A model generated the notes under the pieces. It was not told where the DNA came from and did not search any database. It saw nothing but the letters and a program-made list of their open reading frames with translations. Source: Microvirga sp. 17 mud 1-3 (GTDB taxonomy: Bacteria; Pseudomonadota; Alphaproteobacteria; Rhizobiales; Beijerinckiaceae). From it: a DNA stretch of 64,000 bases. Both the position numbers and the translations under genes were made by a program. Location of the stretch: the NCBI RefSeq assembly GCF_003151255.1, contig NZ_CP029481.1:4031001-4095000 (forward strand). Reading direction: 5' to 3'. Of this stretch, positions 30,202 through 46,410 are shown piece by piece (the stretch's first letter is position 1; the number at the start of each line of letters is the position of its first letter).

Positions 30202-30249
30202 ATGGCGCACCCGACACGATTCGAACGTGTGACCTTTGCCTTCGGAGGG
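30202..30249 (-). repeat. attL of element 1: tRNA-Arg(CCG) 3' half
   Basis: 48 bases identical to 46333-46380, covering the CCA end, T arm and anticodon region of tRNA-Arg(CCG) up to GCCTTCGGAGGG, after which the two sequences diverge. This is the chromosomal 3' half separated from its 5' half by integration; the element restored the gene with its own copy at the other end. Confidence 0.92.
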
Positions 30250-30377
30250 TTTCGGTTAGGCATTTTCTCTGGTTTACAGGAATTTTCTCGAAGCGCCTAA
30301 AGCCTTATTTTACAGGACTTTTCGTCTGTTTCGGGTTTTCCGGCCAATTCGAGCATCTTCCTCAATTTCCGATTTTG

Positions 30378-30397
30378 TGGTGACTCTGTGGTGACAC
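30378..30397 (+). promoter_or_regulatory. Element 1 integrase arm-type site, left end
   Basis: TGGTGACTCTGTGGTGACAC contains two TGGTGAC direct repeats 11 bases apart. The same 20-mer with one mismatch occurs in the same orientation at the right end of the element (46267-46286), as expected for arm binding sites of a tyrosine integrase. It also lies 25 bases before the integrase start, so could couple binding to expression. Confidence 0.7.
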
Positions 30398-30421
30398 TAA
30401 CCCCGAAGGCAAGGGTTACAG

Positions 30422-31702
30422 ATGCCGAAGCTCACCAAGAAAATCGTGGACGCGGCTGAGCCGCGGGAGAAGCCATATTTCATCTGGTGCAGTGACCTGG
30501 TCGGCTTCGGCGTCCGGGTCTTTCCGTCTGGCAAGCGGATCTATTATGCGGACTATCGCAACAAGTCCGGCCAGCGGAAGCGAATGACCATCGGACCGCA
30601 CGGCAAGCTCACGACCGAAGAGGCCCGCAAGCTCGCCATGATGACGCTGGGCGACGTTCTGAAGGGTGAAGACCCGGCCGAGGAACGGGCCACCCGCCGC
30701 AACTCCCTCACCGTGAAGGAGCTATGCGCCAACTACCTCGAAGCGGCCGAGCGCGGTTTGATCATGGGTAAGGGTGGGCGGGCGAAGAAAGCCTCCACCC
30801 TCTACGTGGATCGCGGCCGGATCGAGCGGCATATCATCCCGTTGCTGGGCCCGAAGCTGGTCCGTGACCTGGCGCAAGCCGACATTCACCGCTTCATCCG
30901 AGATGTAGCTTCCGGCAAGACGGCCGCTGTCGAGAAGACCGGCAATCTGCGCGGCAAAGCCATTGTTGAGGGTGGCACCGGCACGGCCGCCCGCACCGCC
31001 GGCCTGCTGGGCGGCATCCTGTCCTTCGCGGTGTCCGAAGGCGTCATTCCGTTCAATCCAGCGCAAGGCGTGAGGCGCCCTGCCGACAAGAAACGCCAGC
31101 GGCGGCTCACGGCCGAGGAGTATCGCCGGTTAGGAGAGGCGCTTGAAAAGGCCGAGGAGCAGGCCGAGACGGAACAGGCCATTCATGGAGCTTGGTTGCT
31201 TGCCCTGACGGGTTGCCGCCTGGACGAAATCCAAGGGCTGAAGTGGTCCGAAGTTGATGAGGCGGGCGGCTGCTTCCGGCTGGAGGACACCAAGGAAGGC
31301 GCATCGGTCCGGCCCATCGGCCGCTCAGTCTTCGACGCGCTGGCTAGGATCGAGAGACGGAAGAGCTGTCCCTATGTCCTGCCTGCCGCAAGGGAAGCCA
31401 AGGGCCATTATGGCGGCCTGCCTGGCGGCTGGCAGCGGATAGCGGAACGGGCAAAGTTCACCGACGTGACGCCGCATACCCTCCGGCATTCCTTCGCCAG
31501 CGTGGCCGGCGATCTTGGGTTCGCGGAATCAACCATTGCCGCAATGCTCGGCCACGCAGCCGGATCGGTGACGAGCCGCTACGTCCATCACCTCGATAGC
31601 GTCCTGATCGCAGCGGCCGATAAGGTGGCGCAGGCGATCCATGCGCAGATGACGGGAGAGGAAGGGAAAGTCGTGCAGCTTCCCAGCCGAGCGACGCGAT
31701 GA
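30422..31702 (+). CDS. int: Tyrosine site-specific integrase of element 1 (DUF4102/P4-type)
   Basis: 426 aa. N-terminal DUF4102 arm-binding domain (MPKLTKKIVDAAEPREKPYF, GFGVRVFPSGKRIYYADYR), SAM-like core-binding region around 95-200, and catalytic domain with Arg in TGCRLDEIQGLKW, HTLRHSFAS (His-x-x-Arg), GHAAG, and the Tyr nucleophile in SRYVHH. It would integrate and excise element 1 at the tRNA-Arg anticodon region. It is 172 bases from the attL repeat and oriented away from it. Confidence 0.95.
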   Translation: MPKLTKKIVDAAEPREKPYFIWCSDLVGFGVRVFPSGKRIYYADYRNKSGQRKRMTIGPHGKLTTEEARKLAMMTLGDVLKGEDPAEERATRRNSLTVKELCANYLEAAERGLIMGKGGRAKKASTLYVDRGRIERHIIPLLGPKLVRDLAQADIHRFIRDVASGKTAAVEKTGNLRGKAIVEGGTGTAARTAGLLGGILSFAVSEGVIPFNPAQGVRRPADKKRQRRLTAEEYRRLGEALEKAEEQAETEQAIHGAWLLALTGCRLDEIQGLKWSEVDEAGGCFRLEDTKEGASVRPIGRSVFDALARIERRKSCPYVLPAAREAKGHYGGLPGGWQRIAERAKFTDVTPHTLRHSFASVAGDLGFAESTIAAMLGHAAGSVTSRYVHHLDSVLIAAADKVAQAIHAQMTGEEGKVVQLPSRATR

Positions 31703-31716
31703 TTGATGTTTTTGCA

Positions 31717-31799
31717 GCGTAACAGATGTAACGCGTGTAACAGCCCTGATTTTAAAGGCAAATTCCTGTTACACCGCGATTTCCGGCATGTGTAACAGG
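31717..31799. repeat. GTGTAACAGG-type repeat cluster after int
   Basis: Repeats GCGTAACAG, GTGTAACAG (31735-31743), CCTGTTACAC (31765-31774) and GTGTAACAGG (31790-31799). The last two are a perfect 10-bp inverted repeat with a 15-base spacer. The same word occurs at 37859-37965 beside the replication ATPase gene. It is non-coding here, which argues that it is a protein-binding site and not a by-product of codon use. The 31703-31952 gap holds nothing else recognised. Confidence 0.65.
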
Positions 31800-31952: not shown

Positions 31953-32480
31953 ATGGCAACGCTTCGAGACTTCATCACTAACCGCAGAGCGGAGATCAAA
32001 CAGGAGATCGCCCGGCTTAGGACTGAGCTGCGGGAGCTCGATGTCGTCGAAAGCACCCTGAACAATGTGCCATTGCATCAGCCGACTGTTCGCGTATCAG
32101 CGACGGTTGTTCCGGGCCGATCTGAAGAAGCATCAAAGACGCTTAAGGAGATGGCGGTCGAAGTTCTGAGTGACCGTCCAGAGGGCGCAGATGCAAACCA
32201 GATCCTAAAGGCTATTCACGAGCGTTTTGGAGTTGAGGTGGCGAGGTCAAGCCTTTCGCCACAGCTTAGCCGTTTGGGGCACGAGGGTGTGCTCGAACGC
32301 GATAGCTTTATCTGGAAGCTCAGGAAGTTCGCTTCGGCGGCCGTCGAAAGCACGGCGCCGAAAGAGAATGAGCCGTCCAACGAAATGTTGAACGGCTCAG
32401 AAACCGGCTCTGAAGACGGGTACCAGCCGTCTGAAGAGCTTTCGTCAGATGCATCGTCCCGCACGGACATTTTTTCGTAG
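31953..32480 (+). CDS. Coiled-coil plus winged-helix protein of unknown function
   Basis: 175 aa. Residues 1-35 form a charged coiled coil (FITNRRAEIKQEIARLRTEL), residues about 65-120 look like a winged helix (TLKEMAVEVLSDRPEGADANQIL, RSSLSPQLSRLGHEGVLERD), and the C-terminal 50 residues are acidic and Ser/Glu-rich. Probably a DNA-binding accessory protein. It follows int and the repeat cluster in element 1. No named family recognised. Confidence 0.65.
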   Translation: MATLRDFITNRRAEIKQEIARLRTELRELDVVESTLNNVPLHQPTVRVSATVVPGRSEEASKTLKEMAVEVLSDRPEGADANQILKAIHERFGVEVARSSLSPQLSRLGHEGVLERDSFIWKLRKFASAAVESTAPKENEPSNEMLNGSETGSEDGYQPSEELSSDASSRTDIFS

Positions 32481-32638
32481 GAGGCAAGCGTGGCTCGGCA
32501 CCCCACCTGCTTAGGATAAGCCAGCCGCTTCGGCGGCCTAACCTTCCTCGAATTGCTCGGCGCCCATAGGCACCTTACTGACGCACACAATCTATGGTGT
32601 CGCCGGGCTCACGTCAACAGTAGTTGAAGGGAGCCGAC

Positions 32639-32929
32639 ATGGCCTTCCAACGTCTTTCTATACTCGCGGAGGCATTCTCCGAAACTCAAAAACTCGCAGT
32701 CTGGAACAAGGGCACCGTTATCCAGGGCTATGATCCCCGGATCTGGCGCCGAGATATGTGCGGCTACGCGATGAAGTACGACAAGTACGGAGTCTGCGGG
32801 GAGTATGGCTGGGAGATCGACCACATTCGCCCTGTTGCGAAGGGTGGCTCTGACGACCTGTTCAATCTCCAGCCGCTGTTCTGGGAAAACAACCGCCGCA
32901 AAGGCGATACCTTCCCCTGGTACGGCTGA
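32639..32929 (+). CDS. HNH endonuclease-like protein
   Basis: 96 aa from the ATG at 32639 (RBS GAAGGGAG). Compact HNH/betabetaalpha-Me motif: WEIDHIRPVAKGGSDD, FNLQPLFWENNRRKGD with Asp-His, Asn and Asn-Arg-Arg-Lys. Unlike typical HNH proteins it lacks clear zinc Cys pairs apart from CGYAM and CGEYGW (two Cys). It lies in the early region of element 1, apart from the packaging HNH at 42.5 kb, so a different role such as defence or replication is likely. Confidence 0.75.
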   Translation: MAFQRLSILAEAFSETQKLAVWNKGTVIQGYDPRIWRRDMCGYAMKYDKYGVCGEYGWEIDHIRPVAKGGSDDLFNLQPLFWENNRRKGDTFPWYG

Positions 32930-32941
32930 GGAGTGGCTGCA

Positions 32942-33193
32942 ATGTCAACCTGGCAAGTCGCTCTGGTACGAGAGCAAGGTGTCACCTTCGGGGTTGTGTC
33001 CGTCCGCGATAGCGTGATCGACAGCCCCTCCCAGCGTGACGACCTCATTCGGTGGTGGACGATGAAACTCGGCTGCCCCGCCGTTCTGATAGGTGCACAA
33101 CGACACCGGACCTATGGTCGGCAGGACATTGTGCGGTTCCTTCGGAATGTTCATCCGTCTCAGCTTCCCTGGCGGAAGATGAACGTGGCGTAA
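32942..33193 (+). CDS. Small protein of unknown function
   Basis: 83 aa from the ATG at 32942 with GAGGAG eight bases upstream (a GTG at 32933 is possible). Alternating hydrophobic and basic residues (TWQVALVREQGVTFGVVSVRD, CPAVLIGAQRHRTYGRQDIVRFL). It follows the HNH gene by 12 bases and may be its partner. Its 3' half overlaps an opposing frame at 33045-33329. Confidence 0.5.
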   Translation: MSTWQVALVREQGVTFGVVSVRDSVIDSPSQRDDLIRWWTMKLGCPAVLIGAQRHRTYGRQDIVRFLRNVHPSQLPWRKMNVA

Positions 33194-33669: not shown

Positions 33670-33924
33670 CTAGCTGCTGCTGGATGTAGATGCGTTCCGT
33701 CTTAGCCTCACGCCCGGCCCGCCACCATTCTCAGGGATGAACTCGACGCCCGCAGCTTCGAGGGCTCTTCTGATGGCATCGAGGGTGGCGGGAATTGGCT
33801 CTGCCCCGGCCTCAAACCGCGTGACCGTGCTGACACCGACATTCGCTTCCCGCGCAAGATCACGCACTCCCCAGCCGAGAGCCGCACGCGCCATTCTGGA
33901 CTGAACTGCTGTTATCATGAGCAT
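33670..33924 (-). CDS. XRE/Cro-CI family repressor-like protein
   Basis: 84 aa. Helix-turn-helix region: QSRMARAALGWGVRDLAREA then NVGVSTVTRFEAGAEPIPATL, followed by RRALEAAGVEFIPENG, the standard layout of short XRE regulators of mobile elements. Divergent from the early genes of element 1 with palindromes between them, so it is the candidate maintenance repressor of the switch. Confidence 0.85.
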   Translation of the reverse strand: MLMITAVQSRMARAALGWGVRDLAREANVGVSTVTRFEAGAEPIPATLDAIRRALEAAGVEFIPENGGGPGVRLRRNASTSSSS

Positions 33925-34537: not shown

Positions 34538-34585
34538 GAAAGTAATTGACTTTCCGATTAGTCGCCATAAGTTATGGAAATTCCA
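34538..34585. promoter_or_regulatory. Promoter/operator region of the MerR-like gene
   Basis: Inverted repeat GAAAGT-AATTG-ACTTTC (34538-34554) overlaps a TTGACT box, and a second short palindrome TGGAA-A-TTCCA lies at 34575-34585. Both stand directly before the ribosome site GGAGG of the next gene. Confidence 0.5.
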
Positions 34586-34602
34586 ATAGCGGAGGTTTCC
34601 AA

Positions 34603-35067
34603 ATGACTATCCCAAATCTCAAAGCCCGCACAGCACTCGCGACTGATCTCGCGTTCGTTAATCGCCAGCGGTTCAACGAAGCGGTTGCCGAGGGCTTTTA
34701 TCCGTGTGCACCGAAGACCGTCCGCGGCTCGACACGACTGTTTGACGTGAACGACATTGTTACCCTCCGCATCTATGGCCGCCTCCTCGATGAGGGCATG
34801 GTGCCACGCTCCGCCGGACTTATGGCCTGCGGGTTGAGAACCCTTCTAGCGCAATATCCTGAGATCGACCGGGCAGTGTATGTCACCAATTCGCTGGGAA
34901 GTCCGGTTTGGCTGCGGGCCGAAGACTTTGACCGAGACGCCACGCACATGAGCGGCATAGACATCGTTTCTGTGCGCGAGTGGTTCCTGAAATACACTCG
35001 CGAGCGCATCATTCACGAACTTCAGGAAGAAGCGAACATCGTCGGCTCCGATGACGACAACGAGTAA
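34603..35067 (+). CDS. MerR-like HTH regulator
   Basis: 154 aa from the ATG at 34603 with GGAGG nine bases upstream. The segment RQRFNEAVAEGFYPCAPKTVRGSTRLFDVNDIV then TLRIYGRLLDEGMVPRSAG has the MerR-type winged HTH order with the conserved RLFDVNDIVTL. The remaining part (VWLRAEDFDRDATHM, VREWFLKYTRERIIHEL) has no known effector domain. Probably the activator of the downstream replication and packaging genes, or an excisionase-like factor. Confidence 0.7.
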   Translation: MTIPNLKARTALATDLAFVNRQRFNEAVAEGFYPCAPKTVRGSTRLFDVNDIVTLRIYGRLLDEGMVPRSAGLMACGLRTLLAQYPEIDRAVYVTNSLGSPVWLRAEDFDRDATHMSGIDIVSVREWFLKYTRERIIHELQEEANIVGSDDDNE

Positions 35068-35081: not shown

Positions 35082-35360
35082 ATGAAAGAGCAAACTCAAC
35101 TCGCTACGGCTGGCACGGCTGAAATCCCTCTTCCGGCTGCCCTTCGCAAGCCGCGCCTCCGTCGCTGGGAGGCGGCGGAGTATTTGGAAACGGTCCACGG
35201 CATCACTATTGCCGTGGCGACTCTCGCCAAGCTCGCCAGCGTTGGCGGTGGCCCTGCTTATCACAAGAGCAATCGGACGCCGCTCTATCCCCGTGACGAG
35301 CTAGACCGCTGGGCGGCTGAACGGCTCGGCAACCTGATCAACAGCGCATCGGAGCAATAG
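35082..35360 (+). CDS. AlpA/excisionase-like small HTH protein
   Basis: 92 aa. RLRRWEAAEYLETVHGITIAVATLAKLASVGGGPAYHKSNRTPLYPRDELDRWAAERL has the HTH_17 layout (xEAAxYL ... LxxLxxxGxGPxxxKxGrxxxYxxxdLdxW). Such proteins act as excisionases or as AlpA activators of P4/PICI integrases. It lies 14 bases after the MerR-like gene. Confidence 0.8.
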   Translation: MKEQTQLATAGTAEIPLPAALRKPRLRRWEAAEYLETVHGITIAVATLAKLASVGGGPAYHKSNRTPLYPRDELDRWAAERLGNLINSASEQ

Positions 35361-35362: not shown

Positions 35363-35590
35363 ATGGGAGTGGAAACGAAGACCCCTGCCATGGCGGCAAC
35401 CATCGGCAGGGGCTCTAAGAGCGTGATGCTTGGGAAAGATCACAGGAACAATAAACAGCACAATGCGAGGCTTATGACAAGCCGGACGCTCATTCCTGAG
35501 TTTTCCGATGATGGCGCTCTTACCGGCTGGAGTCTCTTTCCCTGCCGTGCCGACGCCCGCGCCTTCCTGCGAGCGGGAGGTGCGAGGTGA
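35363..35590 (+). CDS. Small protein of unknown function
   Basis: 75 aa starting three bases after the previous stop (RBS region GGAGCAATAGGA). Hydrophilic; ends SLFPCRADARAFLRAGGAR. No family recognised. Same strand and tight spacing to its neighbours support a real gene, but composition gives no function. Confidence 0.45.
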   Translation: MGVETKTPAMAATIGRGSKSVMLGKDHRNNKQHNARLMTSRTLIPEFSDDGALTGWSLFPCRADARAFLRAGGAR

Positions 35591-35897: not shown

Positions 35898-36446
35898 GTG
35901 CGGCTTGAACATGATCGCTTTGCCGATGTGCCCAACCCTATGGGCGCATCTGAACCGAACGGTTCCATTCCCTATCACGACGTAAACCCGCCGGCTGAGA
36001 AACTAGCGAAAGTCGCAAAGAAAGAATGGCCATTCCGGCTCACTGAACGCGGCGTGGAGAAGCGTATTGAGGCACGTGACAAGGAACTCGGCATCACAAC
36101 TGTGGAGTGGCGCTGGTTCTGTTCACGTCTTGAAGTGTCCGCTGAAACGCGATCTTCCGAGGGTGAGGAATGGGGTCGCCTGCTTTCCGTGACGGATCGT
36201 GACGGCCGCGTGAAGACCTGGGCAATGCCCATGTCAATGCTGGCCGGCGACGGCACGGCCTATCGTGAACGCCTCCTCTCTCTCGGCCTGATCATGGCAC
36301 CGGGCAAGTTCGCCCGCGATGCTCTGCACGAATACATCAGCACCGCCCAGCCTGGTGATAAGGCGCGATGCGTCGGACGCCTCGGCTGGGAGCTGGAAAC
36401 CTTTGTTCTGCCGAATGGCGCAATCGGAGATCACTCCAATGGGTGA
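35898..36446 (+). CDS. DUF927 protein, N-terminal part (split gene)
   Basis: 182 aa, GTG start one base after the previous stop. WPFRLTERGVEKRIE and then WRWFCSRLEVSAETRSSEGEEWGRLLSVTDRDGRVKTWAMPMSML, RCVGRLGWELETFVLPNGAIGD are the first third of a DUF927 domain. The frame ends at TGA 36444-36446 exactly where the rest of the domain continues in the +1 frame. With one base fewer in GGG (36441-36443) the two parts would join as one 631-residue protein. See the next entry. Confidence 0.8.
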   Translation: MRLEHDRFADVPNPMGASEPNGSIPYHDVNPPAEKLAKVAKKEWPFRLTERGVEKRIEARDKELGITTVEWRWFCSRLEVSAETRSSEGEEWGRLLSVTDRDGRVKTWAMPMSMLAGDGTAYRERLLSLGLIMAPGKFARDALHEYISTAQPGDKARCVGRLGWELETFVLPNGAIGDHSNG

Positions 36447-37794
36447 GCGTATCGTTTTTCAGGCATCCGGCGCGGTGGATCATGCCTTCCGTGTGAGCGG
36501 TGAGCTGAAGGACCGGCAGGACGAGGTTGCCCGCTATGCCGTCGGCAACTCGCGCCTGGTGCTGGCAATCTCAACAGCCTTTGCCGCGCCTCTTCTCTAT
36601 CCTACGGATTCGGAGTCCGGTGGCCTTCACTTTCGAGGCGGATCGAGCACCGGGAAGACAACGGCATTGACTGTAGCCGGATCTGTATGGGGTGGTGGTG
36701 TCCGTGGTTTTGTTCGTACCTGGCGCGCCACGTCGAACGGGCTTGAAGGTATTTGCGCCATTCACTGCGACTCTCTTCTGTGCTTGGACGAGCTCGGACA
36801 GGTTGACGGCCGGGAAGCTGGCGCGATTGCTTACATGCTGTCGAACGGCATCGGCAAAAGCCGCGCCAACCGCAACGGTGAGGCGCGCCCGGCGGCTCAA
36901 TGGCGGTTGTTGTTTCTGTCGAGTGGCGAGGTTGGCCTTGCGGACAAGATCGCGGAAGATGGGCGCGGGCGGCGCGTTGCAGCGGGTCAGCAAGTCCGTG
37001 TCGTCGATATTCTGGCCGATGCTGGTGCCGGCATGGGGATCTTCGAAAACCTCCATGGTTTTGAGAGCGCCGATGCTTTCGCACGCTACCTGAAAACCGC
37101 AACGAATAAGTTCTACGGCAGCGCCTGCCGGGAGTTCCTCACCCATCTTACGAGGGACTTCAAGGGTATCGCCCCTGTCGTCATTGGCCTGCGAGACGAG
37201 TTCCTGACTGCATACTGTCCCAAGGATGCCGATGGACAGGTTAGCAGGGTAGCGGCCCGGTTTGGATTGGTTGCCGGCGGCGGTGAGATGGCGGCCACAT
37301 TCGGCGTTCTGCCATGGAGCCGTGGAGAGGCAACAAGAGCTGCAGCACGGTGCTTTCAGGACTGGCTTGCCGCACGTGGCGGCGTCGAGCCTGCGGAGGA
37401 GCGGGAGGCGATTGCGAGAGTGAGGCACTTTATCGAGCTGCACGGCACGTCCCGCTTCGCGCCAATGGGCAATCTTGTGCCAACCGACAGCATCGGCAGC
37501 CCGGTAGAATTGCGCATCAACAACCGTGTTGGCTTCAGGCGGCGGACTGATAGCGGCGGCATTGAGTATCTTGTTCTGCCTCAGTCCTGGCAGTCCGAGG
37601 TCTGTGCCGGAATGGATGCCGGAGCTGTCGCAAAGGTGCTCAGCAATCGCGGGATGCTGAAGCGCGGCTCTGGTGGGAAGATGCAAACCGTTGCACGTGT
37701 TCCCGGCTTCGACAAGGCCGTAAGGGTCTACCTGCTCACGCCGCAACTCTTTGCCGATGACCAAGCCGCCGAACCTGAATACGACTTCGGCTGA
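36439..37794 (+). CDS. DUF927 replication ATPase, C-terminal part (split gene)
   Basis: 451 aa from the ATG at 36439, which overlaps the upstream stop as ATGGGTGA. Contains the ATPase core of DUF927: Walker A FRGGSSTGKTTAL near residue 60, TWRATSNGLEGICA, Walker B LLCLDELGQVDG near 118, NGIGKSRANRNG, LFLSSGEVGLADK and GQQVRVVDI. DUF927 proteins are superfamily 3-like helicases used for replication of phages, plasmids and satellites. Either it is a separate, translationally coupled subunit or the gene has suffered a one-base insertion. Iteron-like repeats lie just downstream. Confidence 0.85.
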   Translation: MGERIVFQASGAVDHAFRVSGELKDRQDEVARYAVGNSRLVLAISTAFAAPLLYPTDSESGGLHFRGGSSTGKTTALTVAGSVWGGGVRGFVRTWRATSNGLEGICAIHCDSLLCLDELGQVDGREAGAIAYMLSNGIGKSRANRNGEARPAAQWRLLFLSSGEVGLADKIAEDGRGRRVAAGQQVRVVDILADAGAGMGIFENLHGFESADAFARYLKTATNKFYGSACREFLTHLTRDFKGIAPVVIGLRDEFLTAYCPKDADGQVSRVAARFGLVAGGGEMAATFGVLPWSRGEATRAAARCFQDWLAARGGVEPAEEREAIARVRHFIELHGTSRFAPMGNLVPTDSIGSPVELRINNRVGFRRRTDSGGIEYLVLPQSWQSEVCAGMDAGAVAKVLSNRGMLKRGSGGKMQTVARVPGFDKAVRVYLLTPQLFADDQAAEPEYDFG

Positions 37795-37807
37795 TGAGGA
37801 CGAACCC

Positions 37808-38113
37808 ATGAAGGCTTATGACCTCCTCGACGCCCTCGCCCGCAAGATCGGCGTTACACCTGTTACACCTCCCCACCATCGAGGTGTAACAGGTGGCGTA
37901 ACCAGAAATAAGAAATTAAATCAGCTACTTAGGAAACGCGCTACACCCGTTACACCTGTTACACCTCAAAATGATAATGGCTGGGACGAAAACGACTGGC
38001 AGATGGCTTTCGAGGAACGGGCTGCGATCCTCGAATATGATGGCGGACACTCCCGGCAGGAAGCTGAGCGTTTAGCACGTGAAGAAATTAATAATACGCG
38101 CGCAAGTTACTGA
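37808..38113 (+). CDS. Small protein with VTPVTP repeats, overlapping iteron-like DNA
   Basis: 101 aa from the ATG at 37808. N-terminal helix MKAYDLLDALARKIG, then VTPVTPP and TPVTPVTP encoded by GTTACACC repeats, and a C-terminal helix (MAFEERAAILEYDGGHSRQEAERLAREE). The repeated DNA word may matter more than the peptide, since the same word occurs outside genes near int. Similar short proteins follow DUF927 or primase genes in other elements. Confidence 0.6.
   Translation: MKAYDLLDALARKIGVTPVTPPHHRGVTGGVTRNKKLNQLLRKRATPVTPVTPQNDNGWDENDWQMAFEERAAILEYDGGHSRQEAERLAREEINNTRASY
37859..37965. repeat. Iteron-like CCTGTTACACC repeats, candidate replication origin
   Basis: CCTGTTACACC at 37859-37869 and 37955-37965, inverted GGTGTAACAGG at 37883-37893, with shorter copies GCGTTACACC (37851-37860) and CCGTTACACC (37947-37956). 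The first and inverted copies are separated by 13 bases, closely matching the 15-base spacing of the pair at 31765-31799. An A/T-rich stretch AAATAAGAAATTAAATCAG (37905-37923) lies between, as expected for an unwinding region. Directly downstream of the DUF927 ATPase gene. Confidence 0.6.
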
Positions 38114-38218
38114 AATACCGTGACAATTCCAGCATATTTAAGTCACATCTTCTAGCCATCTATTCTTTGACTTACTTCCTTATTGGCCGATCTTCGCCTT
38201 GTAACGCGCAAGGCGACA

Positions 38219-39425
38219 ATGATCGAAAAGCTCAAAGGTCTGTTTCGACCTGAAACGAAATCTTCCCTGGCCAATCCCTCGGCCGAGTTACTTGCTCTTT
38301 TCGGTGCAACCCCAACCGCATCCGGCACAGTTGTCACCGCTGAGAGCGCGATGCGCTGCGCGACGGTTTACGCCAGCGTTAAGGTAATTGCCGAAAGCGT
38401 GGCTCAACTTCCGCTTCATCTGTACCGCCGCACCGAAGGCGGCGGGAAGGAACGTGCCGCCGATCATCCGCTTTCTGAACTCCTGCACGATCAGCCGAAC
38501 GAGTGGACGAGTTCTTTCGAGTTCCGGTTGTTCATGCAGACGGCCCTTTGCCTTCACGGCAACGCCTATGCCTTCATCAACCGGACGAATGGCCGGCTCT
38601 TCGAGCTTATCCCTATCCCGTCGTCGTGCGTGACCGTCGAAGTCGATCCGGTGACGATGGAGCCTTCCTATAAGGTTTCGTCTGGTGATGACAGCCAGCG
38701 TGTCTATGACCGAACCGAAATCTTCCATCTGAAGACGCTGGGCACTTCACCGCACATCGGCCTTTCGCCCATCTCTCAGATGCGGGAGGCTATCGGCCTG
38801 GCGCTGGTGATGGAGGAACACGGCGCGCCTCTTCAGCAATGGGGCGCGGCCGAGTGGCGTTTTCAAATATGGCAAGATGGTTGGACCGGACTTGGCCAAG
38901 CGCCTCCGGGAGAGCTTCAACGCCGCTCATGCTGGAGGACCGAACAGCGGCCGGACGCTGATCCTCGAAGACGGCATGGATTTCCAGGCGCTTCAGTTTA
39001 CGTCCGTGGACCTTCAGTTTCTTGAGCTGCGGCGGCATCAAATTGCGGAGATCGCGCGTGGCTTCCGCATCCCGCTCCATCTGCTGCAAGAGCTTGAGCG
39101 CGCCACGCACAACAATGCCGAGAGCATGGGACAACAGTTCCTGTCGCTCACCGTCCTGCCCTGGCTGAAGCTCTGGGAGGGCGCAATCAGCCGCTCGCTT
39201 CTGACGGCTGAAGAGCGCCGCGACTACTATGCTGAGTTCCTGGCCGACGACCTGGCGCGGGCCGATCTTGCCGCCCGCTTCGAGGCTTATGCGAAGGCTG
39301 TCACGAACGGCATTCTCAACCCGAATGAAGTCAGGACTGCTGAGAACCGCGCGCCTTATCCCGGCGGCGATCAATTCCGCCTGCCGATGAACACCGAAGA
39401 TCCGAACAAGCCGAAGGACGAGTGA
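38219..39425 (+). pseudogene. HK97-type phage portal protein, interrupted by a frameshift
   Basis: From the ATG at 38219 the N-terminal half is normal (ATVYASVKVIAESVAQLPLHLY, LHDQPNEWTSSFEF, HGNAYAFINR, GLSPISQMREAIGLALVMEEHGA) until about 38822. After that the family sequence ARLFSNGARPSGVFKYGKMV continues in another frame through FLELRRHQIAEIARGFRIPLHLL to the stop at 39425. Restoring two bases in the GCGCGC run at 38823-38828 gives about 402 residues, the usual portal length. As written, neither half can form the dodecameric DNA-entry ring. Could be a sequence error or real inactivation. Confidence 0.88.
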
Positions 39426-41083
39426 TGGAGCACCTCACCCTCGAAGTGAAGTTTGCGACCGGCGATGCCGGGCTTGTCTCCGGCTATGCCTCCCTCTTCG
39501 GCCGGCCCGCCGATTACGTGAACGATGTGATCGAGCCGGGAGCCTTTGCGGCGTCCCTGTCGGCTCACGACGTCAGCGGCACCATGCCGTTGATGCTGCG
39601 GGAGCACAAAGGCGAGCCAATCGGTGAATGGCTGGAGATCGAGGAAGACGAGATTGGGCTTCGGGTGAAGGGCCGGCTGGACCTCAACACGCCCGGCGGG
39701 CGCGAAGTCTATGAGCAAGCGTGTGGGGGCCGAATTGATGGCCTGTCCATCGGATACCGCGCCGTGAAGGCGGATCGCGGACAGGACGGCACCCGCTCAC
39801 TTCAGGAAATCGAGCTGCACGAGATCAGCCTTGTTCGACGTCCCGCGTCGAGCCGGGCACGTGTGCTGTCGATTAAGTCGGCTCCGGCCAACACTACCGC
39901 CGCGAAGGGCGCGGCATCATCCAAGAGGACGACCATGGAAAAGAAGGAAACCGCGCCCGGCGGTAACTCGGGCAATGAGACGGACATCAACGAGCGCGTT
40001 GATGGCTTGGCAGAGACGGTTTCGGCCATCGACACCCGCCTGTCGGCGGTGGAAGAAAAGGTTGGTTCCGTAAAGTCCGTTGCTGACAGGATCGAAGCCA
40101 AGCTCAACCGTCCCGGCTCCGCCACCGAGACGAAGGCGGCACCGGAGAATGTGGAGGGCAAGGCTTTCACCGTCTTCCTACGTCGCGGCGTCGAGCGCAT
40201 GGCGGCCGACGAGGTGAAGACCCTCACCGTCGCCAACGATCCTTCGGCTGGCTATCTCGCTCCTGAGACGTTCGGCACCGAGCTCTTCAAGAACATGGTG
40301 GAGTTCTCGCCTATCCGGCAATACGCCCGCGTGGTGCAGATCACCGGGCCGGAAATCCGCTACCCGCGCCGCGTCTCCGGCACGACTGCCTATTGGGTGG
40401 ATGAGATTGAGGACCGCACGGCTTCGGAACCGACCTTCGAGCAAGTGACCCTCACGCCCTGGGAACTGGTAACCTTTACGGAAGTGTCCAACCAGTTGCT
40501 TGAGGACAACGCCTATAACTTGGAGCAAGAGCTTCGCCTCGATTACACCGAGAGCTTCGGCAAGAAAGAGAGTGTTGCGTTTGTGAACGGGACTGGCGTG
40601 AAGCAGCCGAAAGGCGTCCTGCAGGCTGCGGGCGTTGCCGAGATCAACACCGGTAAGGCTGATGGCTTCGCGGCAACCGATCCGGCTGACGCTCTGGTTC
40701 GCATGTACCACGCCCTGCCTACGGCTTACGCCCAGCGCGGCGCGTGGCTCATGAACCGGAATGTCATGGGCACCATGCGTCTCTGGAAGGATGCACAGGG
40801 CCGCTACCTCTTGAACGAGCCGATCACCGAAGGGGCACCGATGACGCTTCTCGGCCGGCCGGTCATCGAGGCGGTGGATATGCCTGACGTGGCCGCCAAC
40901 GCTTTCCCTGTCGACTTTGGCGACTGGTCCGGCTACCGCATCGTGGACCGCATCGGCCTTTCGATCCTCCGCGATCCTTACACCCGCGCCCGGAACGGCA
41001 TCACGACCTTCCATGCCCGCAAGCGTGTGGGTGGTGACGTGACCCATCCCGACCGCTTCGTGAAGCTGAAGGTGGCGGCCTAA
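39425..41083 (+). CDS. Prohead protease fused to HK97-fold major capsid protein
   Basis: 552 aa from the ATG at 39425 (overlapping the portal stop as TGATG). Residues 1-150 are a prohead protease (S78/U35): catalytic His in LREHKGEPIGEW and Ser in DGLSIGYRAVK. A flexible Ala/Lys/Thr-rich linker (about 155-185) leads into a delta-domain-like coiled coil (INERVDGLAETVSAIDTRLS, VEEKVGSVKSVADRIEAKL). The HK97 capsid domain (about 240-552) has GYLAPETFGTELFKNMVEFSPIRQYA, FVNGTGVKQPKGVL and WLMNRNVMGTMRLWKD. It would assemble heads and then mature them by self-cleavage. Fusion of the two is uncommon but known. Confidence 0.93.
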   Translation: MEHLTLEVKFATGDAGLVSGYASLFGRPADYVNDVIEPGAFAASLSAHDVSGTMPLMLREHKGEPIGEWLEIEEDEIGLRVKGRLDLNTPGGREVYEQACGGRIDGLSIGYRAVKADRGQDGTRSLQEIELHEISLVRRPASSRARVLSIKSAPANTTAAKGAASSKRTTMEKKETAPGGNSGNETDINERVDGLAETVSAIDTRLSAVEEKVGSVKSVADRIEAKLNRPGSATETKAAPENVEGKAFTVFLRRGVERMAADEVKTLTVANDPSAGYLAPETFGTELFKNMVEFSPIRQYARVVQITGPEIRYPRRVSGTTAYWVDEIEDRTASEPTFEQVTLTPWELVTFTEVSNQLLEDNAYNLEQELRLDYTESFGKKESVAFVNGTGVKQPKGVLQAAGVAEINTGKADGFAATDPADALVRMYHALPTAYAQRGAWLMNRNVMGTMRLWKDAQGRYLLNEPITEGAPMTLLGRPVIEAVDMPDVAANAFPVDFGDWSGYRIVDRIGLSILRDPYTRARNGITTFHARKRVGGDVTHPDRFVKLKVAA

Positions 41084-41113: not shown

Positions 41114-41485
41114 ATGCGCGACATGCGAAACAGCATCAAAGTGGTCCCTGTGATCGAGCCGGGCGTCTATTCCGGCAAGGCCAACGGCGCGGCCGTGGAC
41201 ACAGCGGGCTATGACTCGCTCACCTTCGCCATCTCCATGGCCGAGGGCGGCAGCTCCAGCGGCTTCGAGCTCGCCATGGAGCACAGTGACAACGGCAAGG
41301 AATGGGAGCTTGTCCGGCCTGACAACGTGCTTGGTGAAATCGAGAGCGGTGAACCGTTCGGCTACACCGGCGGCACGACGGGCCAGCGGCGCTATGTGCG
41401 TCTTTCCCTCTCCCCGAAGGGCAAGAGCACGAAAGGGACCGGCATTGCCGTGATGGCCATTCTCGGCCATCGGCGCGGAGCTTAG
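41114..41485 (+). CDS. Head-associated protein (decoration- or connector-like), unassigned
   Basis: 123 aa, ribosome site GGAGG eight bases upstream. All-beta look: SIKVVPVIEPGVYSGKANGAAVDTAGYDSLTFAISM, QRRYVRLSLSPKGKSTKGTG. Similar small genes lie between capsid and connector genes in many HK97-type modules and are thought to decorate or stabilise heads. No named family is certain. 156 bases without a gene follow it. Confidence 0.6.
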   Translation: MRDMRNSIKVVPVIEPGVYSGKANGAAVDTAGYDSLTFAISMAEGGSSSGFELAMEHSDNGKEWELVRPDNVLGEIESGEPFGYTGGTTGQRRYVRLSLSPKGKSTKGTGIAVMAILGHRRGA

Positions 41486-41641: not shown

Positions 41642-42229
41642 ATGAAGCTAACGCTGATCACCCCGCCGGCCGTCGATCCGGTCACACTCGATGAGGTGAA
41701 GGATCACCTTCGCATCACGCAAGACTTTGAGGACACCCTACTCACGGACTTCATCCGCACGGCCACACAAAAGCTCGATGGCCGTTATGGTCTGCTTGGC
41801 CGCTGCTTGATCAATCAGACTTGGCGCCTGTCGCTCGATCGCTTCAGCCGTGAAATCGTCCTGCCCTTCCCTCCTGTGCAGGCTGTTAACCGGATCTACT
41901 ACCTCGGCCACGATGGCGAAGAGGTGGACGTGACCGCCACGGATTACCGCGTCTCCGGCCCGTCTGGCTTTGACGGAGCAGCGATCCGCGCGGCGCGCGG
42001 ACTGGCCTGGCCTGAGACTTACGACACTGAGAGCGCCTTCATCGAGTTCACGGCGGGCTTCGGTGAAACGCCGGCCGATGTGCCTGAGCCGATCCGAACG
42101 GCCATCAAAATGCATGTGGGCCACCTCTATGCGAACCGGGAAAGCGTCACTCTCGGCTCCGGTTTCATCACCGAGACGCCGCACGGCTACGAAGACCTGA
42201 TCCGCGATTATCGACTGTTGGGCTTCTGA
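41642..42229 (+). CDS. Phage head-tail connector protein (gp6-like)
   Basis: 195 aa. MKLTLITPPAVDPVTLDEVKDHLRIT at the start is the gp6-like connector signature, followed by LLTDFIRTATQKLDGRYG and, near the end, IRTAIKMHVGHLYANRESV. In HK97-like phages this protein forms a ring under the portal. It gives the element a complete neck side onto which a helper tail could dock. Confidence 0.88.
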   Translation: MKLTLITPPAVDPVTLDEVKDHLRITQDFEDTLLTDFIRTATQKLDGRYGLLGRCLINQTWRLSLDRFSREIVLPFPPVQAVNRIYYLGHDGEEVDVTATDYRVSGPSGFDGAAIRAARGLAWPETYDTESAFIEFTAGFGETPADVPEPIRTAIKMHVGHLYANRESVTLGSGFITETPHGYEDLIRDYRLLGF

Positions 42230-42231
42230 TC

Positions 42232-42549
42232 ATGCGCGCGGGCATCATGGATCGGCGCATCACGGTTCAGCACTACACGACCGTGGATGATGGATATGGC
42301 AACGAGATTCCGACCTGGGCTGATCTGGCAACTGTATGGGCTTCGGTGCAACAGGAAAGCGGCCGGGAGTTCATTCAGGCATCCGCAATCACGCCGGAAC
42401 GCCGGGTTGTTTTCCGCACCCGCTGGATAGACAGCATCACGACCACGCATCGCGTGATCTATGAGGGACGCCAGCACGACATTCACCAAGTCCGTGAAAT
42501 CGGACGGCGTGAAGGGCTTGAGCTTCACACGACGGCAACAGGTGCCTAA
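42232..42549 (+). CDS. Phage head closure protein (SPP1 gp16/DUF-head-tail adaptor type)
   Basis: 105 aa. IMDRRITVQHYTTVDDGYGNEIPTW then TVWASVQQESGREFIQASAI, RTRWIDSITTTHRVIYEGRQHDIHQVREIGRREGLEL are standard for the head-tail joining family (phage_H_T_join). It starts 2 bases after the connector stop and its own stop overlaps the HNH start (TAATG). Confidence 0.88.
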   Translation: MRAGIMDRRITVQHYTTVDDGYGNEIPTWADLATVWASVQQESGREFIQASAITPERRVVFRTRWIDSITTTHRVIYEGRQHDIHQVREIGRREGLELHTTATGA

Positions 42550-42995
42550 TGCCCTGGTCAGCTCCGAAGCATTGCCCAGCCGGACACCCGCCCTTCCGTG
42601 ATCGGCGCTGCCCTGTCTGTGCTGCCGCCTCGAAGGCTGCGGCCGATGCCCGTCGTCCCTCTGCCCGCGCACGTGGCTATGACAGCAAGTGGGAACGAGA
42701 GAGCAAAGCGTTTCTCGCTCTTCCGCATAACCGCTTCTGTGCCTGCGGCTGCGGACAGGTTGCCGATATGGTCGATCACCGCATTGCTCACAAAGGTGAC
42801 AAGCTCCTGTTTTGGGACCGCTCCAACTGGCAACCCTACAACCGCCGCTGCAACAGCCGGAAGGCGGTTCGGGAGGAAGGCGCGTTCGGCAACCGGCTCA
42901 AGCTCCCCGAGCGTCAGCGCGGAGCTGCATCAAGTGAGATTGGGTTTCACCCGCATTCTCCTGAATGTTCAAAGGAGGCCGGTAGTGCTGAATGA
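42549..42995 (+). CDS. HNH endonuclease of the packaging module
   Basis: 148 aa. Zinc Cys pairs CPAGHPPFRDRRCPVC and CACGCG frame the HNH motif MVDHRIAHKGDKLLFWDRSNWQPYNRRCNSRKA. The phage-type HNH next to terminase helps large terminase make specific DNA cuts during packaging (known for HK97 and for PICIs). Its last 98 bases overlap the opposing GIY-YIG gene, so the C-terminal tail after about residue 115 may be poorly constrained. Confidence 0.88.
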   Translation: MPWSAPKHCPAGHPPFRDRRCPVCAAASKAAADARRPSARARGYDSKWERESKAFLALPHNRFCACGCGQVADMVDHRIAHKGDKLLFWDRSNWQPYNRRCNSRKAVREEGAFGNRLKLPERQRGAASSEIGFHPHSPECSKEAGSAE

Positions 42996-43440
42996 TCCAG
43001 CTTTCCAGTATGCCGGGTTCGGTGAACGGGATCCAAGCCACACGTGCATTGGCAACGATCCACTCAGACAGTGCGAGTTCACCCTGTCTCTCAAAGGCGA
43101 GCTTCCGCCTCACGCCAGTGGTGCGGGCTTGGAGGCCGAGTTCGTTCATCAAAAGGCAGCCAATCGAGCGCCGCAAACTCGAACTTCCAGAAGAGTTGTT
43201 GCAGTGGTTCAACAGGCGCTTTCGAAGCCGGGTGGCGATGCCCGTGTAAAGAAACACCATTCCATCTCGGCGGGGCAACTCGTCATGAACAGGGAGCCCA
43301 AGCGTGGATGCGAAGAACCATGCATAGATGCCCGGTTCCATGGGAATGGCCTGCTGAAGAGCGCGTATTTCCGCACTGGTCTGCAATGGTCGTTCGTTCA
43401 GCAGGTGGTGTGCAATTTGCTCAAGTTCGCTCGACTGCAT
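42898..43440 (-). CDS. GIY-YIG nuclease-family protein, reverse-strand cargo
   Basis: 180 aa from the ATG at 43440 with GGGAGGG four bases upstream. GIYAWFFASTLG, then VFLYTGIATRLRKRLLNH has the GIY and YTG(I) signature elements with catalytic-type Arg, and EPGILESWIIQHYRPPLN carries the Glu and the final Asn-like end of the fold. It is the only reverse gene inside the packaging module, inserted between HNH and TerS, with its own likely promoter. Such morons often act against competing phages. Its specific target is unknown. Confidence 0.75.
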   Translation of the reverse strand: MQSSELEQIAHHLLNERPLQTSAEIRALQQAIPMEPGIYAWFFASTLGLPVHDELPRRDGMVFLYTGIATRLRKRLLNHCNNSSGSSSLRRSIGCLLMNELGLQARTTGVRRKLAFERQGELALSEWIVANARVAWIPFTEPGILESWIIQHYRPPLNIQENAGETQSHLMQLRADARGA

Positions 43441-43571
43441 CCAGCCCTCCCCGATTCGGTGTTCGCGCCACCATACCAAAGGCCAGGGGCATCTTGGAAT
43501 TTTCGCCTATTCGCCAAGGACCGACGCCCCCATCTTGCGCGCAATCTCTTCGAAAATGGGAGTTTTCTGAA

Positions 43572-43982
43572 ATGAAGGGCCGCAAGCCGAATTTGACCGT
43601 CATCGATGGCGGCACGGTTCGGGGCAAATGCCCTTCCGCACCGGCCTGGCTGACCTCACAGGCCAAGGCGGAATGGAAGAGGGCTGCGCCGCAACTGCAT
43701 GGCCGCAATCTGCTGACCACAGACACGATGGCGACCCTGGAAAGCTATTGCGTCGCGGTGGGGATGGTGCGCGAAGCCGAAGAGATCATGGCCCGTGACG
43801 GCCGATTGGTTGAAACCGAGAAAGGCATGTCGCCTCACCCGGCTTTCAAGATGCAAAGCGCCGCAATGCGTGAAGCACGACTACTGGCCGCTGAGCTGGG
43901 GCTAACCCCGCACCGTCGCGGCATGAAAAGCAAAGACGAAGGGAAACATGACGATGGCTGGGAGTCCGATCTTCTCGCCTGA
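43572..43982 (+). CDS. terS: Terminase small subunit (P27 family)
   Basis: 136 aa from the ATG at 43572. MKGRKPNLTVIDGG, CPSAPAWLTSQAKAEWKRAAPQL, LLTTDTMATLESYCVAVGMVREAEEI and HPAFKMQSAAMREARLLAAELGLTPHRR are typical of P27. It recognises the packaging site on satellite DNA. The upstream extension of this frame overlaps the GIY-YIG gene and is ignored. Its end overlaps TerL by 35 bases. Confidence 0.9.
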   Translation: MKGRKPNLTVIDGGTVRGKCPSAPAWLTSQAKAEWKRAAPQLHGRNLLTTDTMATLESYCVAVGMVREAEEIMARDGRLVETEKGMSPHPAFKMQSAAMREARLLAAELGLTPHRRGMKSKDEGKHDDGWESDLLA

Positions 43983-45567
43983 TCCGGCGCTTTATCCTGA
44001 TCCGACTGGCAGGGCTGACCGTATCAGCCGCTTTATCCGGCGGCTCAAACTGTGGGAAGGCGACTTTGCCGGACGGCCTTTCCACCTCCACGACTTTCAA
44101 GAAGCCATTGTCCGGCGCATTTACGGGCCGAGCACCGACGACAGCGCGCGCCTGGTGCGGATCGCCTGCATTTGGATACCACGTGGCAACGCCAAAACGA
44201 CGTTGGCCGCTGGGCTTGGCCTGGCTCACTTCCTGGGACCAGAGGCGGAGGCCGGCGGACAGGTTGTCATGGCCGCTGCGGATCGAGAGAACGCTGGCAT
44301 CGCCTTCAACTCCGCTCACCAGTTAGTTCTGCAGGACGACACCTTATCCTCTCGGGTTCGGGCCATTGAGAGCCGGAAGACTCTTGGCCATCCCAAGACG
44401 AAGAGCACCCTGAAGGCTATCTCGAGCGAGGCTTATTCGAAGCACGGCCTGAACGTGTCGTTTTTCCTGGCCGATGAGGTTCACGCCTGGCCGCTGGGTG
44501 AGGGCCGGAAGCTCTTCAAAACCGTCACCGACTCCATGGTGAAGCGGTCGCACCCTCTCACGGTGATCATCTCCACGGCCGGCGAAGGGCAAGGCGGCCT
44601 TGCCTGGGACTTGTGGCAGTATTCGCACAAAGTGGCGTCTGGCGAGATCGAAGACCCGACCTTTGCACCCATCATCTTCGCGGCTCCGCCTGAAGCGGAT
44701 TGGCGGGATGAAAGCGCCTGGCGCATGGCAAACCCTGCAATTGCCGCCGGTTTCTGTTCTCTCGAAGAGCTACGCATCAAGGCGCGGCGAATTGAGCACT
44801 TCCCGGCCGAGATTGCGGACTTCCGCCGCTTCCACCTCGACCAATGGCAGGAGGGCGCGGCGAGCCCGTGGCTGGCGCTCGAAGTCTATGACGCGGCCGA
44901 GCCGATGACGCCGGTTGGGGATCTATCCGGGCGGCCGTGCTGGGTTGGCGTGGACCTGTCGAGCGTGGAAGACCTGACGGCCGTGGTTGCCGTCTTCCCC
45001 GATGGCGATGGAGAGGGCCGCCGCTATGACGTGTTGCCGATGTTCTTCCTGCCCGAAGCCGGTTTGGCAAAGAAAGCCGAAAAGGATCAGGCGGACTATC
45101 TGCGCTGGAAAGAAGGCGGATTCCTGACCGTGACCGAAGGCAACGTGGTGGACCATTCCGCTATCGTGGACCACGTGGTTGAGCTGGGCACGAAGTATGG
45201 GGTTCAGGAAATCGCTATCGACCGCTGGAACTCCACGGCGGTGAACACGGCCCTTCAGGAAGAGGGTTTCACAATCAACCAGTTCGGGCAGGGCTTCGCC
45301 AGCATGGCCGCCCCTGTGAAGGAATTGAAGCGGGCGATCCTGTCCGGCCACTTCCGCCACGGCGGTAACCCGCTCCTGCGCATGTGCTTTGGCAATGTGG
45401 TTGCCGACAAGGACGCGGCCGAGAACGAGAAGTTCACTAAAGAGCGGGCGCGCGGCCGGATCGATGGAGCCGTTGCTGCCGCTATGGCCGTGGGCCGCAT
45501 CCTGGCGAACGAAACCGGGCCATCACCCTATGAGACACAACGGCCTGAAGGCTTCCTGTTCATTTAG
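43948..45567 (+). CDS. terL: Terminase large subunit
   Basis: 539 aa. Walker A-like WIPRGNAKTTLAAGL near residue 78, Walker B VSFFLADEVHAW near 175, coupling motif VIISTAGEG, then RNase-H-fold nuclease with VGVDLSSVEDLTAV near 333, AIDRWNSTAV and ARGRIDGAVAAAMA near 510. It pumps DNA into the prohead and cuts it. The start inside terS implies coupled translation. Last rightward gene of element 1; nothing tail-like follows. Confidence 0.94.
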   Translation: MTMAGSPIFSPDPALYPDPTGRADRISRFIRRLKLWEGDFAGRPFHLHDFQEAIVRRIYGPSTDDSARLVRIACIWIPRGNAKTTLAAGLGLAHFLGPEAEAGGQVVMAAADRENAGIAFNSAHQLVLQDDTLSSRVRAIESRKTLGHPKTKSTLKAISSEAYSKHGLNVSFFLADEVHAWPLGEGRKLFKTVTDSMVKRSHPLTVIISTAGEGQGGLAWDLWQYSHKVASGEIEDPTFAPIIFAAPPEADWRDESAWRMANPAIAAGFCSLEELRIKARRIEHFPAEIADFRRFHLDQWQEGAASPWLALEVYDAAEPMTPVGDLSGRPCWVGVDLSSVEDLTAVVAVFPDGDGEGRRYDVLPMFFLPEAGLAKKAEKDQADYLRWKEGGFLTVTEGNVVDHSAIVDHVVELGTKYGVQEIAIDRWNSTAVNTALQEEGFTINQFGQGFASMAAPVKELKRAILSGHFRHGGNPLLRMCFGNVVADKDAAENEKFTKERARGRIDGAVAAAMAVGRILANETGPSPYETQRPEGFLFI

Positions 45568-46228
45568 CAGAGTTTTGATCCGCCTTGGTGCTCGCCTGGA
45601 TTTTGTCGAACAGCACCAGATCCTTGTTAATCTGCCCGTCGTTGGTACGATCATAGTGGTTGAAGCCGTGTTCCCTTCTGAACCGTCCAAGCATTTCGCA
45701 CCAATCAGCACTGATGGCCAGCACCTTCTCAGTCGTGACTTTTAGTGATTCGGGGGTAAAGAAAGAATTCTCCGGGCCCAAATCGACATTAACGAACTCC
45801 ATGATATTGCCATGGCAGATGTTGTTGCGGAGACGGACAATCTCCACATCGATTTTGTTGGGTTTTTCAGAGCTTAGATGCTCGAAAAATTTCTCTTCGT
45901 CATTGAACGCCAAGTATTTTACTGGCATTCCCACTTCATGAGCCTGCAAAATAAGCTTGTTGCTCAAGACTCGATATGGAGAAATATCACGAATGTCTTG
46001 CTCAGGCTTCTTATCGAGGAGATGGAGCGTCACTCTCAGTGTCGCCTCAATGCCGTTCAGTAGGGACGACAATGCTGGCACGTAGAGCTCATTGACGTAG
46101 GCATCGTGGCCCTGAACAAAAAACCAATGCTGTTCGGCCGCGCAGAGGCTCTCAAAGAATAGGTTCCGAATGTCGTGAAACCGAGAATAACGAACATTTT
46201 GTCGCGTGATGTAGTCAAAATCAGCCAT
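45560..46228 (-). CDS. HEPN-like protein, cargo at the right end of element 1
   Basis: 222 aa. Long helical regions with VPALSSLLNGIEATLRVTLHLLD and VEIVRLRNNICHGNIMEF, the latter carrying an Arg-x4-His pattern (RNNICH) as in HEPN ribonucleases. Codon and base use are visibly more A/T-rich than the packaging genes. It opposes terL with an 8-base overlap and lies just inside attR, where satellites usually carry accessory defence genes. Function is inferred only from the motif and place. Confidence 0.55.
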   Translation of the reverse strand: MADFDYITRQNVRYSRFHDIRNLFFESLCAAEQHWFFVQGHDAYVNELYVPALSSLLNGIEATLRVTLHLLDKKPEQDIRDISPYRVLSNKLILQAHEVGMPVKYLAFNDEEKFFEHLSSEKPNKIDVEIVRLRNNICHGNIMEFVNVDLGPENSFFTPESLKVTTEKVLAISADWCEMLGRFRREHGFNHYDRTNDGQINKDLVLFDKIQASTKADQNSAK

Positions 46229-46266
46229 TTGCGAATCCCCCAGAAAGCACCGCGCATCTCACCAGT

Positions 46267-46286
46267 TGGTGACTATGTGGTGACAC
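46267..46286 (+). promoter_or_regulatory. Element 1 integrase arm-type site, right end
   Basis: TGGTGACTATGTGGTGACAC, one mismatch to the left-end site at 30378-30397 and in the same orientation, 47 bases before attR. It supports the boundaries of element 1. Confidence 0.7.
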
Positions 46287-46333
46287 CAGCCTGGGCGGCA
46301 CGGATCATGTTTTGCCTAACTTATTGGAAATTA

Positions 46334-46410
46334 TGGCGCACCCGACACGATTCGAACGTGTGACCTTTGCCTTCGGAGGGCAACGCTCTATCCAGCTGAG
46401 CTACGGGTGC
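46334..46410 (-). tRNA. tRNA-Arg (anticodon CCG)
   Basis: On the minus strand: acceptor GCACCCG pairing with CGGGTGC, D arm AGCTCAGCTGGATAGAG, anticodon stem TTGCC/GGCAA around loop CTCCGAA (anticodon CCG), T arm ACACG-TTCGAAT-CGTGT, discriminator G and encoded CCA. This is the only intact copy in the window. It is a hybrid: its 3' half came with element 1 and its 5' half with element 2. CCG is the cognate of a common Arg codon in GC-rich genomes. Confidence 0.96.

Follow-up and report, generated by a model that had tools for sequence, protein, structure and literature searches.

A probable head-making, tail-borrowing satellite, apparently defective, at a tRNA-Arg gene of Microvirga sp. 17 mud 1-3

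How might a mobile element spread that carries the genes to make and fill a phage head and none that is recognisable as a tail gene? The question is raised by a locus of Microvirga sp. 17 mud 1-3, within a 64,000-nucleotide stretch (contig NZ_CP029481.1, positions 4,031,001 to 4,095,000) referred to here as the window, where an element at positions 30202-46380 combines an integrase and replication genes with a head and DNA-packaging module at a tRNA-Arg gene. A first-pass annotation had taken it for a capsid-forming phage satellite. We consider it likely that the element belongs to a kind of integrative satellite whose DNA-filled head is of its own making and whose tail comes from a helper phage, the copy in the window being probably a defective one. 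Similar tail-less elements occur in the same tRNA gene elsewhere, and the set therefore looks like a family of tail-borrowing virus parasites.

The boundaries are clear, and the proposed att repeats at tRNA-Arg hold up. Two perfect 48-nt direct repeats, 16,131 bp apart, bound the element, and an intact tRNA-Arg(CCG) gene (46334-46410, minus strand) has the right-hand repeat as its 3′ part; that an exact repeat of this length should coincide by chance with a tRNA 3′ end is excluded, on argument rather than on shuffled sequences. Pfam and PHROG matches confirm the integrase, the DUF927 gene and the HK97-type head and packaging genes. The reported absence of tail, tape-measure and lysis genes is likewise borne out, in that no such family was matched in the element by Pfam or by PHROGs on 20 pieces, with the small open reading frames (ORFs) at 35363-35590 and 37751-38113 outside the scan.

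Further support comes from relatives (L-numbers denote IMG/VR loci and G-numbers genome loci). A single protein query recovered eight IMG/VR loci, of which four (L037-L040) share the plan of the element, with capsids 93-97% identical to its own. A search with 13 aligned capsid proteins gave 339 IMG/VR relatives, the best 80 of which were kept. Genes were mapped with profile hidden Markov models built in this analysis, and, with seven duplicate or unsuitable loci removed first, 74 loci have a portal gene and a full-length TerL gene. Tape measure, neck and tail terminator are all unmatched in 26 of these, a tape measure accompanied by a neck or terminator gene is present in 45, and a tape measure alone in three. 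The named genome locus nearest to the window is in Microvirga subterranea (Methylobacteriaceae), at 73%.

The first-pass annotation had suggested seeking a tail-less block of about 16 kb at tRNA sites of related genomes, and such a block does recur at this tRNA in other genomes. Nine of the 26 tail-less loci (the window copy, L039, L040, L098, L128, G165, G692, G696 and G153) have a tRNA-Arg(CCG) gene beyond TerL, at a distance of 0.1-0.9 kb in eight and 2.2 kb in G153. Five have att sites at both ends, spaced 16.13 kb apart in the window, 16.40 kb in L039, 17.17 kb in L128, 14.80 kb in G696 and 17.97 kb in G153; the two copies match exactly over 47-51 nt in all but L128, in which neither copy is perfect, and no tail gene was recognised between the att sites of any of the five. 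The cleanest copy, G696, consists of integrase, helix-turn-helix (HTH) and AlpA-like genes, two DUF927 ORFs, head and terminase genes, about 0.5 kb, and the tRNA. The hosts of these nine loci belong to more than one order and to at least four families: G153 shares the family of the window and G165 comes from another family of its order, and because G696 and G692 lie in other families outside that order, the kind is not confined to it. Other sites are also used, L060 lying by a tRNA-Met gene and G600 by a tRNA-Glu gene; the remaining tail-less loci that were scanned showed no tRNA-Arg(CCG), though in many of them the contig ends shortly after TerL.

Setting aside known roles in 17 tail-less loci and one other left 141 ORFs, and 105 of these were scanned with PHROGs; the scan left out L044 (which has a tape measure), the ORFs of L039 that lie past its tRNA, the majority of small or overlapping ORFs and a few larger ones, such as L057:11530-12129, L059:58-834 and L121:59-529. 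No tail or lysis PHROG is among the 25 listed of the 36 families matched in the 17 tail-less loci, the listed ones being primases, a topoisomerase, an invertase, an integrase, an endonuclease, one head-tail adaptor and unknowns.

The genes of the close group (the window copy and L037-L040) are also being maintained. Simple pairwise counts among the window copy and its close relatives gave dN/dS values of 0.01-0.05 for TerL, 0.06-0.13 for the protease-capsid gene and again 0.06-0.13 for the portal (four relatives only). Values for Hc1 and the adaptor are 0.03-0.14 and 0.13-0.24, respectively, with the window copy and three relatives, and 0.20-0.24 and 0.25-0.28 in pairs with the distant L054; HNH reaches up to 0.30. 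The head genes of this group are thus under purifying selection, with an overall dN/dS of about 0.01-0.3, and the group therefore keeps head genes without tails under selection. The N- and C-terminal DUF927 ORFs, at 0.10-0.24 and 0.06-0.18, are both under purifying selection as well.

The features of the window copy are as follows.

30202-30249: attL, a 48-nt copy of the tRNA-Arg(CCG) 3′ part, a perfect repeat of 46333-46380
30422-31702, plus strand: tyrosine integrase (PF00589 2e-18, PF13356 2e-16; phrog_1)
31953-32480, plus strand: unknown protein of 175 aa, no PHROG and no Pfam above cut-off
32624-32929, plus strand: small HNH protein (PF01844 2e-7)
32933-33193, plus strand: unknown phage family (phrog_23950 3.6e-18)
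33670-33924, minus strand: HTH repressor candidate (PF13560 3e-8)
34546-35067, plus strand: possible MerR-type regulator, weak (PF13411 E=0.029, below cut-off)
35082-35360, plus strand: AlpA-like small HTH protein, weak (PF12728, HTH_17, E=0.017, below cut-off)
35898-36446, plus strand: DUF927 primase/helicase, N-terminal ORF (PF06048 positions 1-132)
36439-37794, plus strand: DUF927 primase/helicase, C-terminal ORF (PF06048 positions 128-282), its ATG overlapping the preceding TGA by 8 nt
38183-39025, plus strand: portal, N-terminal frame (PF04860 positions 2-155)
38877-39425, plus strand: portal, C-terminal frame (PF04860 positions 173-321)
39422-41083, plus strand: fused prohead protease and HK97-type major capsid protein (PF04586 1e-25, PF05065 8e-82)
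41114-41485, plus strand: jelly-roll protein, possible capsid cement or decoration protein
41642-42229, plus strand: gp6-like head-tail adaptor (PF05135 8e-12, phrog_442)
42232-42549, plus strand: head closure protein Hc1 (PF05521 4e-27)
42549-42995, plus strand: HNH endonuclease of the packaging module (phrog_2323, phrog_144; no Pfam match)
42898-43479, minus strand: GIY-YIG nuclease gene, inserted in the window copy only (33% to annotated GIY-YIG proteins, 8e-11; no PDB match)
43572-43982, plus strand: TerS, small terminase subunit (PF05119 1.4e-22, phrog_83)
43948-45567, plus strand: TerL, large terminase subunit (PF20441 2e-43, PF03354 2e-18; PDB 6z6d)
45560-46228, minus strand: cargo gene of unknown function, no family above cut-off
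46333-46380: attR, within tRNA-Arg(CCG) 46334-46410, minus strand

Some of the gene assignments of the first-pass annotation need qualification. The repressor gene survives as a candidate HTH protein, and there is a small HTH protein where an AlpA-like gene was proposed (90-92% identical in L037-L039 and 53% in L040), although the AlpA label itself is weak. The DUF927 gene, which matches phrog_1139, is present, not as a single gene but as two ORFs. The order in which connectors are followed by HNH, TerS and TerL at the end stands, but it is not peculiar to this element: the terminase follows the portal in all 74 loci, and precedes it in all four annotated reference phages (Azospirillum phage Cd, D14E, ctuI7215 and SfII).

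Three other identities were considered for the element and rejected. Gene transfer agents (GTAs) are not known to have an integrase or att sites and hold a whole tail set within the cluster; here an integrase and att sites are present and no tail genes were matched. P4-like satellites are not known to have a capsid and terminase set of their own and use the head of the helper, whereas this element has its own capsid and terminase genes. For a complete temperate siphophage, tail and lysis modules would be expected, and neither was matched in the ORFs of the element that were scanned.

The window copy has peculiarities that bear on its present state. Its portal is split over two frames where L037, L038, L039 and L040 each have a single open frame, and a GC run within it is 2 nt shorter than in the close relatives; the frameshift may be either a mutation or a sequencing error. 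For a copy with such a portal, the 'full head set' of the first-pass annotation says too much. A segment of about 0.6 kb that carries the minus-strand GIY-YIG ORF, between HNH and TerS, is missing from L037-L040. The window copy is thus probably a damaged member of its kind. The split of DUF927 appears to be of a different nature. In the window copy and each of L037-L040 the two ORFs overlap by the same 8 nt, spanned by 11 invariant letters, and because this overlap is kept we read DUF927 as a conserved split gene; GGAG lies 7-9 nt upstream of the second ATG in all five. Elsewhere, judged by ORF bounds, the two also overlap by 8 nt in L054 and L128 and by a longer 23-77 nt in L086, L097, L098 and L102, and DUF927 is a single long ORF in L060 and L119.

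The 45 loci with a tape measure and a neck or terminator gene form a sister class (L056, L061-L069, G247, G251, G055, G040 and G049 among others) with the order (integrase)-portal-capsid-HNH-adaptor-neck-tail terminator-Hc1-TerS-TerL-tape measure, the integrase often lying directly before the portal. One of three replication modules is present in 24 of the 26 tail-less loci versus one of the 45 in the sister class. Seven sister elements (G247, G251, G112, G218, G055, G040 and G049) have tRNA-overlapping repeats of 17-67 nt, 17.4-18.4 kb apart. Among 84 ORFs 3′ of the tape measure in 22 loci, 68 were scanned and matched three PHROGs, two of them minor tail proteins, in at most six ORFs; no tube, sheath, tip, baseplate or endolysin gene was found in the sister class, in an insensitive search for which each role was represented by three phages at most.

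The L044 (tape measure at 10951-13212), G281 and G260 loci have capsid, terminase and tape measure with no neck or terminator matches. L036 and L041-L044 have capsids 67-73% and, where present, Hc1 79% identical to those of the window, and a TerL just 37-38% identical: the terminase has been swapped between lineages. Further divergent capsid elements are G230, with a 47-nt repeat by a tRNA-Pro gene, and G682, with portal, protease and tape measure.

Whose tail might the element use? Matches to its Hc1 comprise 302 phage records, mostly of Paenibacillus and Enterococcus phages, and the top-ranked phage relatives include mEp235, QHHSV-1 and HK022 at 41-42%, which we take to be siphophages. HK106 and HK446 are presumably of one kind with HK022. 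These two are the helpers of the capsid-forming phage-inducible chromosomal island (cf-PICI) of E. coli EDL933 (PMC11389934; here and below, published systems are described after the available excerpts of the papers cited). Our best guess is that the tail source is a siphophage. The same genome holds a resident prophage at about C1:2480000-2500000, with genes for a large TerL (phrog_15), protease-capsid, Neck1, baseplate, tail fibre and tape measure, and at about 2.98-2.99 Mb a cluster, named GTA-like here by inference, that encodes related capsid, portal, gp6 and Hc1 proteins; its Hc1 is 27% identical to that of the element.

Several observations weigh against a tail-borrowing satellite, and some of them favour other explanations. 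The portal is frameshifted and a nuclease gene is inserted in the packaging module of the window copy; a close copy is present in none of 36 other genomes of the genus (best capsid identity 38%); less than 1.5 kb follows TerL in 11 of the 26 tail-less loci; and the leftover ORFs were only partly scanned, those of G696 and G153 being outside the scan. Because four pairs (L097/L098, L086/G696, G165/L087 and G600/L121) share identical capsid domains, and each may be one element, the number of independent cases is below 26. More distant relatives do have tape measure and neck genes, and on the capsid tree the tail-less label does not form one clade and requires at least 11 changes, L128 grouping with tape-measure elements; L039 has a different adaptor region. 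From this scatter it follows that tail parts were lost or gained, or head genes exchanged, more than once. The frameshift, an att-like remnant at 28752-28799, the distant relatives with tape measure, neck and tail terminator, and the scattered label would all be accounted for by a siphophage prophage whose tail and lysis genes were deleted and which is now decaying. We consider this improbable: 26 of 74 loci have the tail-less plan, five with att sites at both ends, the head and packaging genes of the close group are under purifying selection, and megablast found no match to the element among 50,697 phage records. Close relatives with the same module followed by tail and lysis genes, which the first-pass annotation had named as the sign of a deleted prophage, were looked for and not found. 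As the origin of the window copy a deleted prophage is largely refuted by the att-bounded tail-less relatives, and holds weakly in that this copy is damaged.

The helper raises the remaining difficulties. The first-pass annotation had advised looking for a helper prophage, and none was identified in the same genome: the Hc1 search matched just the element and the GTA-like cluster, and the tail genes of the resident prophage are of the baseplate type, its neck belonging to a different family. The strain with the EDL933 cf-PICI holds 17 prophages (PMC11389934), and because none of them mobilised that island detectably, the lack of a helper in the same genome counts little against the satellite. 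It could also be taken to favour a domesticated head-only device that yields no infectious particle; that the element has an integrase of its own, att sites, a repressor-type gene and genes for replication, and that close copies occur in metagenomes, point to recent mobility instead, and make such a device most unlikely. That the host's own GTA supplies the tail, in place of a phage, seems equally unlikely: the GTA-like cluster does have relatives of capsid, portal, gp6 and Hc1, but the element's Hc1 is at 41-42% to the top-ranked phages versus 27% to the GTA-like Hc1, and the co-occurrence of element and cluster is uninformative because capsid matches of about 35% are very common in the genus.

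If the element is a tail-borrowing satellite, its cycle can be sketched. As the anatomy shows, the integrase inserts it at tRNA-Arg(CCG) with the tRNA restored. It would then excise and replicate with its own DUF927 primase/helicase; to judge from their families, portal, protease-capsid, adaptor and Hc1 would form a closed small head, into which HNH, TerS and TerL would package the element's own DNA of 15-18 kb. The tail of a co-resident or infecting siphophage would dock on Hc1 to give an infectious particle. The window copy should be unable to assemble heads because of its portal frameshift, provided that this is not an error of sequencing.

The flanks suggest that this tRNA gene may have been used before. 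To the left of the element, at 28752-28799, lies a third copy of the att repeat, 77% identical and decayed, and to its right, at 46497-46533, a remnant of the tRNA 3′ end in inverted orientation; both are possible traces of earlier integrations. Part of the tRNA-Arg 5′ region is repeated at 88% (46380-46421 and 59942-59983), bounding a low-GC stretch of about 46.4-60 kb that seems to be a second element inserted in the same tRNA gene. Across the tRNA from the element, 46847-48999 encodes an AriA-like AAA protein (PADLOC AriA 9e-39) and an abutting ORF (48115-48999) where AriB is expected, likely a PARIS defence pair with AriB assigned by position. L098 again has a defence-type neighbour, an SspA/DndA-like gene directly beyond the tRNA (10637-11860).

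These observations point to head-making, tail-borrowing satellites in the Alphaproteobacteria that return to one site, tRNA-Arg(CCG), and have a gene order of their own. As a tentative proposal that may well prove wrong, we suggest that this group has its own order-spanning family of 15-18 kb capsid-making satellites, terminase-last and not cf-PICIs by descent, with two strategies: one, as in the window, with its own replication genes and no tail part, and the other with no recognised replication gene but with neck, tail terminator and tape measure. If so, an element of the tape-measure strategy would itself set how long the tail is and how it docks, while tube and tip would be the helper's. 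The tail-less kind ends at Hc1 and the sister class adds neck, terminator and tape measure, which makes them a natural comparison for which satellite head proteins choose the tail; the set also makes testable the origin of satellite head genes and head-tail matching across species.

Among known systems the closest likeness is to cf-PICIs, which encode capsid protein, protease, portal, connectors, terminases and HNH and need a helper for tails only (PMC10690885); their signature genes include alpA and Pri-Rep (PMC10448857), and among phage capsids theirs fall into three clades (PMC11389934). The element shares with them its own capsid, protease, portal (frameshifted in the window, open in L037-L040), connectors, TerS, TerL and HNH, together with an integrase and flanking att sites, and no tail gene was matched, so that a helper tail is expected. 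We read it as working like cf-PICIs, a likeness drawn from the described gene set. It differs in that the window's protease and capsid are fused, its AlpA match is weak and the hosts of its kind are alphaproteobacterial. The kind also has its terminase block after the connectors (74 of 74 loci) and DUF927, prim-pol or AAA_25 replication modules, both of which may be further differences from cf-PICIs and their Pri-Rep. In the literature on phage satellites, Alphaproteobacteria and PICIs, as far as the available excerpts go, no such elements were found described, though the primary cf-PICI survey (Alqurainy et al. 2023) may list some.

The Streptomyces satellites MulchRoom and MiniFlayer likewise have head and packaging genes, helper dependence and small capsids, but differ in having no primase, direct terminal repeats, virulent helpers and other hosts (PMC10690885). 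The sister class resembles the E. coli capsid and tape-measure satellites, which lie mostly by tRNAs and have capsid genes and partial tail genes, but are described as without terminase, protease, alpA, adaptor and Pri-Rep (PMC10448857). Alphaproteobacterial GTAs, finally, have an HK97-type capsid and portal as the element does, and a GTA-like cluster is present in the same genome; the window capsid is 33-34% identical to that of the cluster, and the element has, in contrast to a GTA, an integrase, att sites and replication genes.

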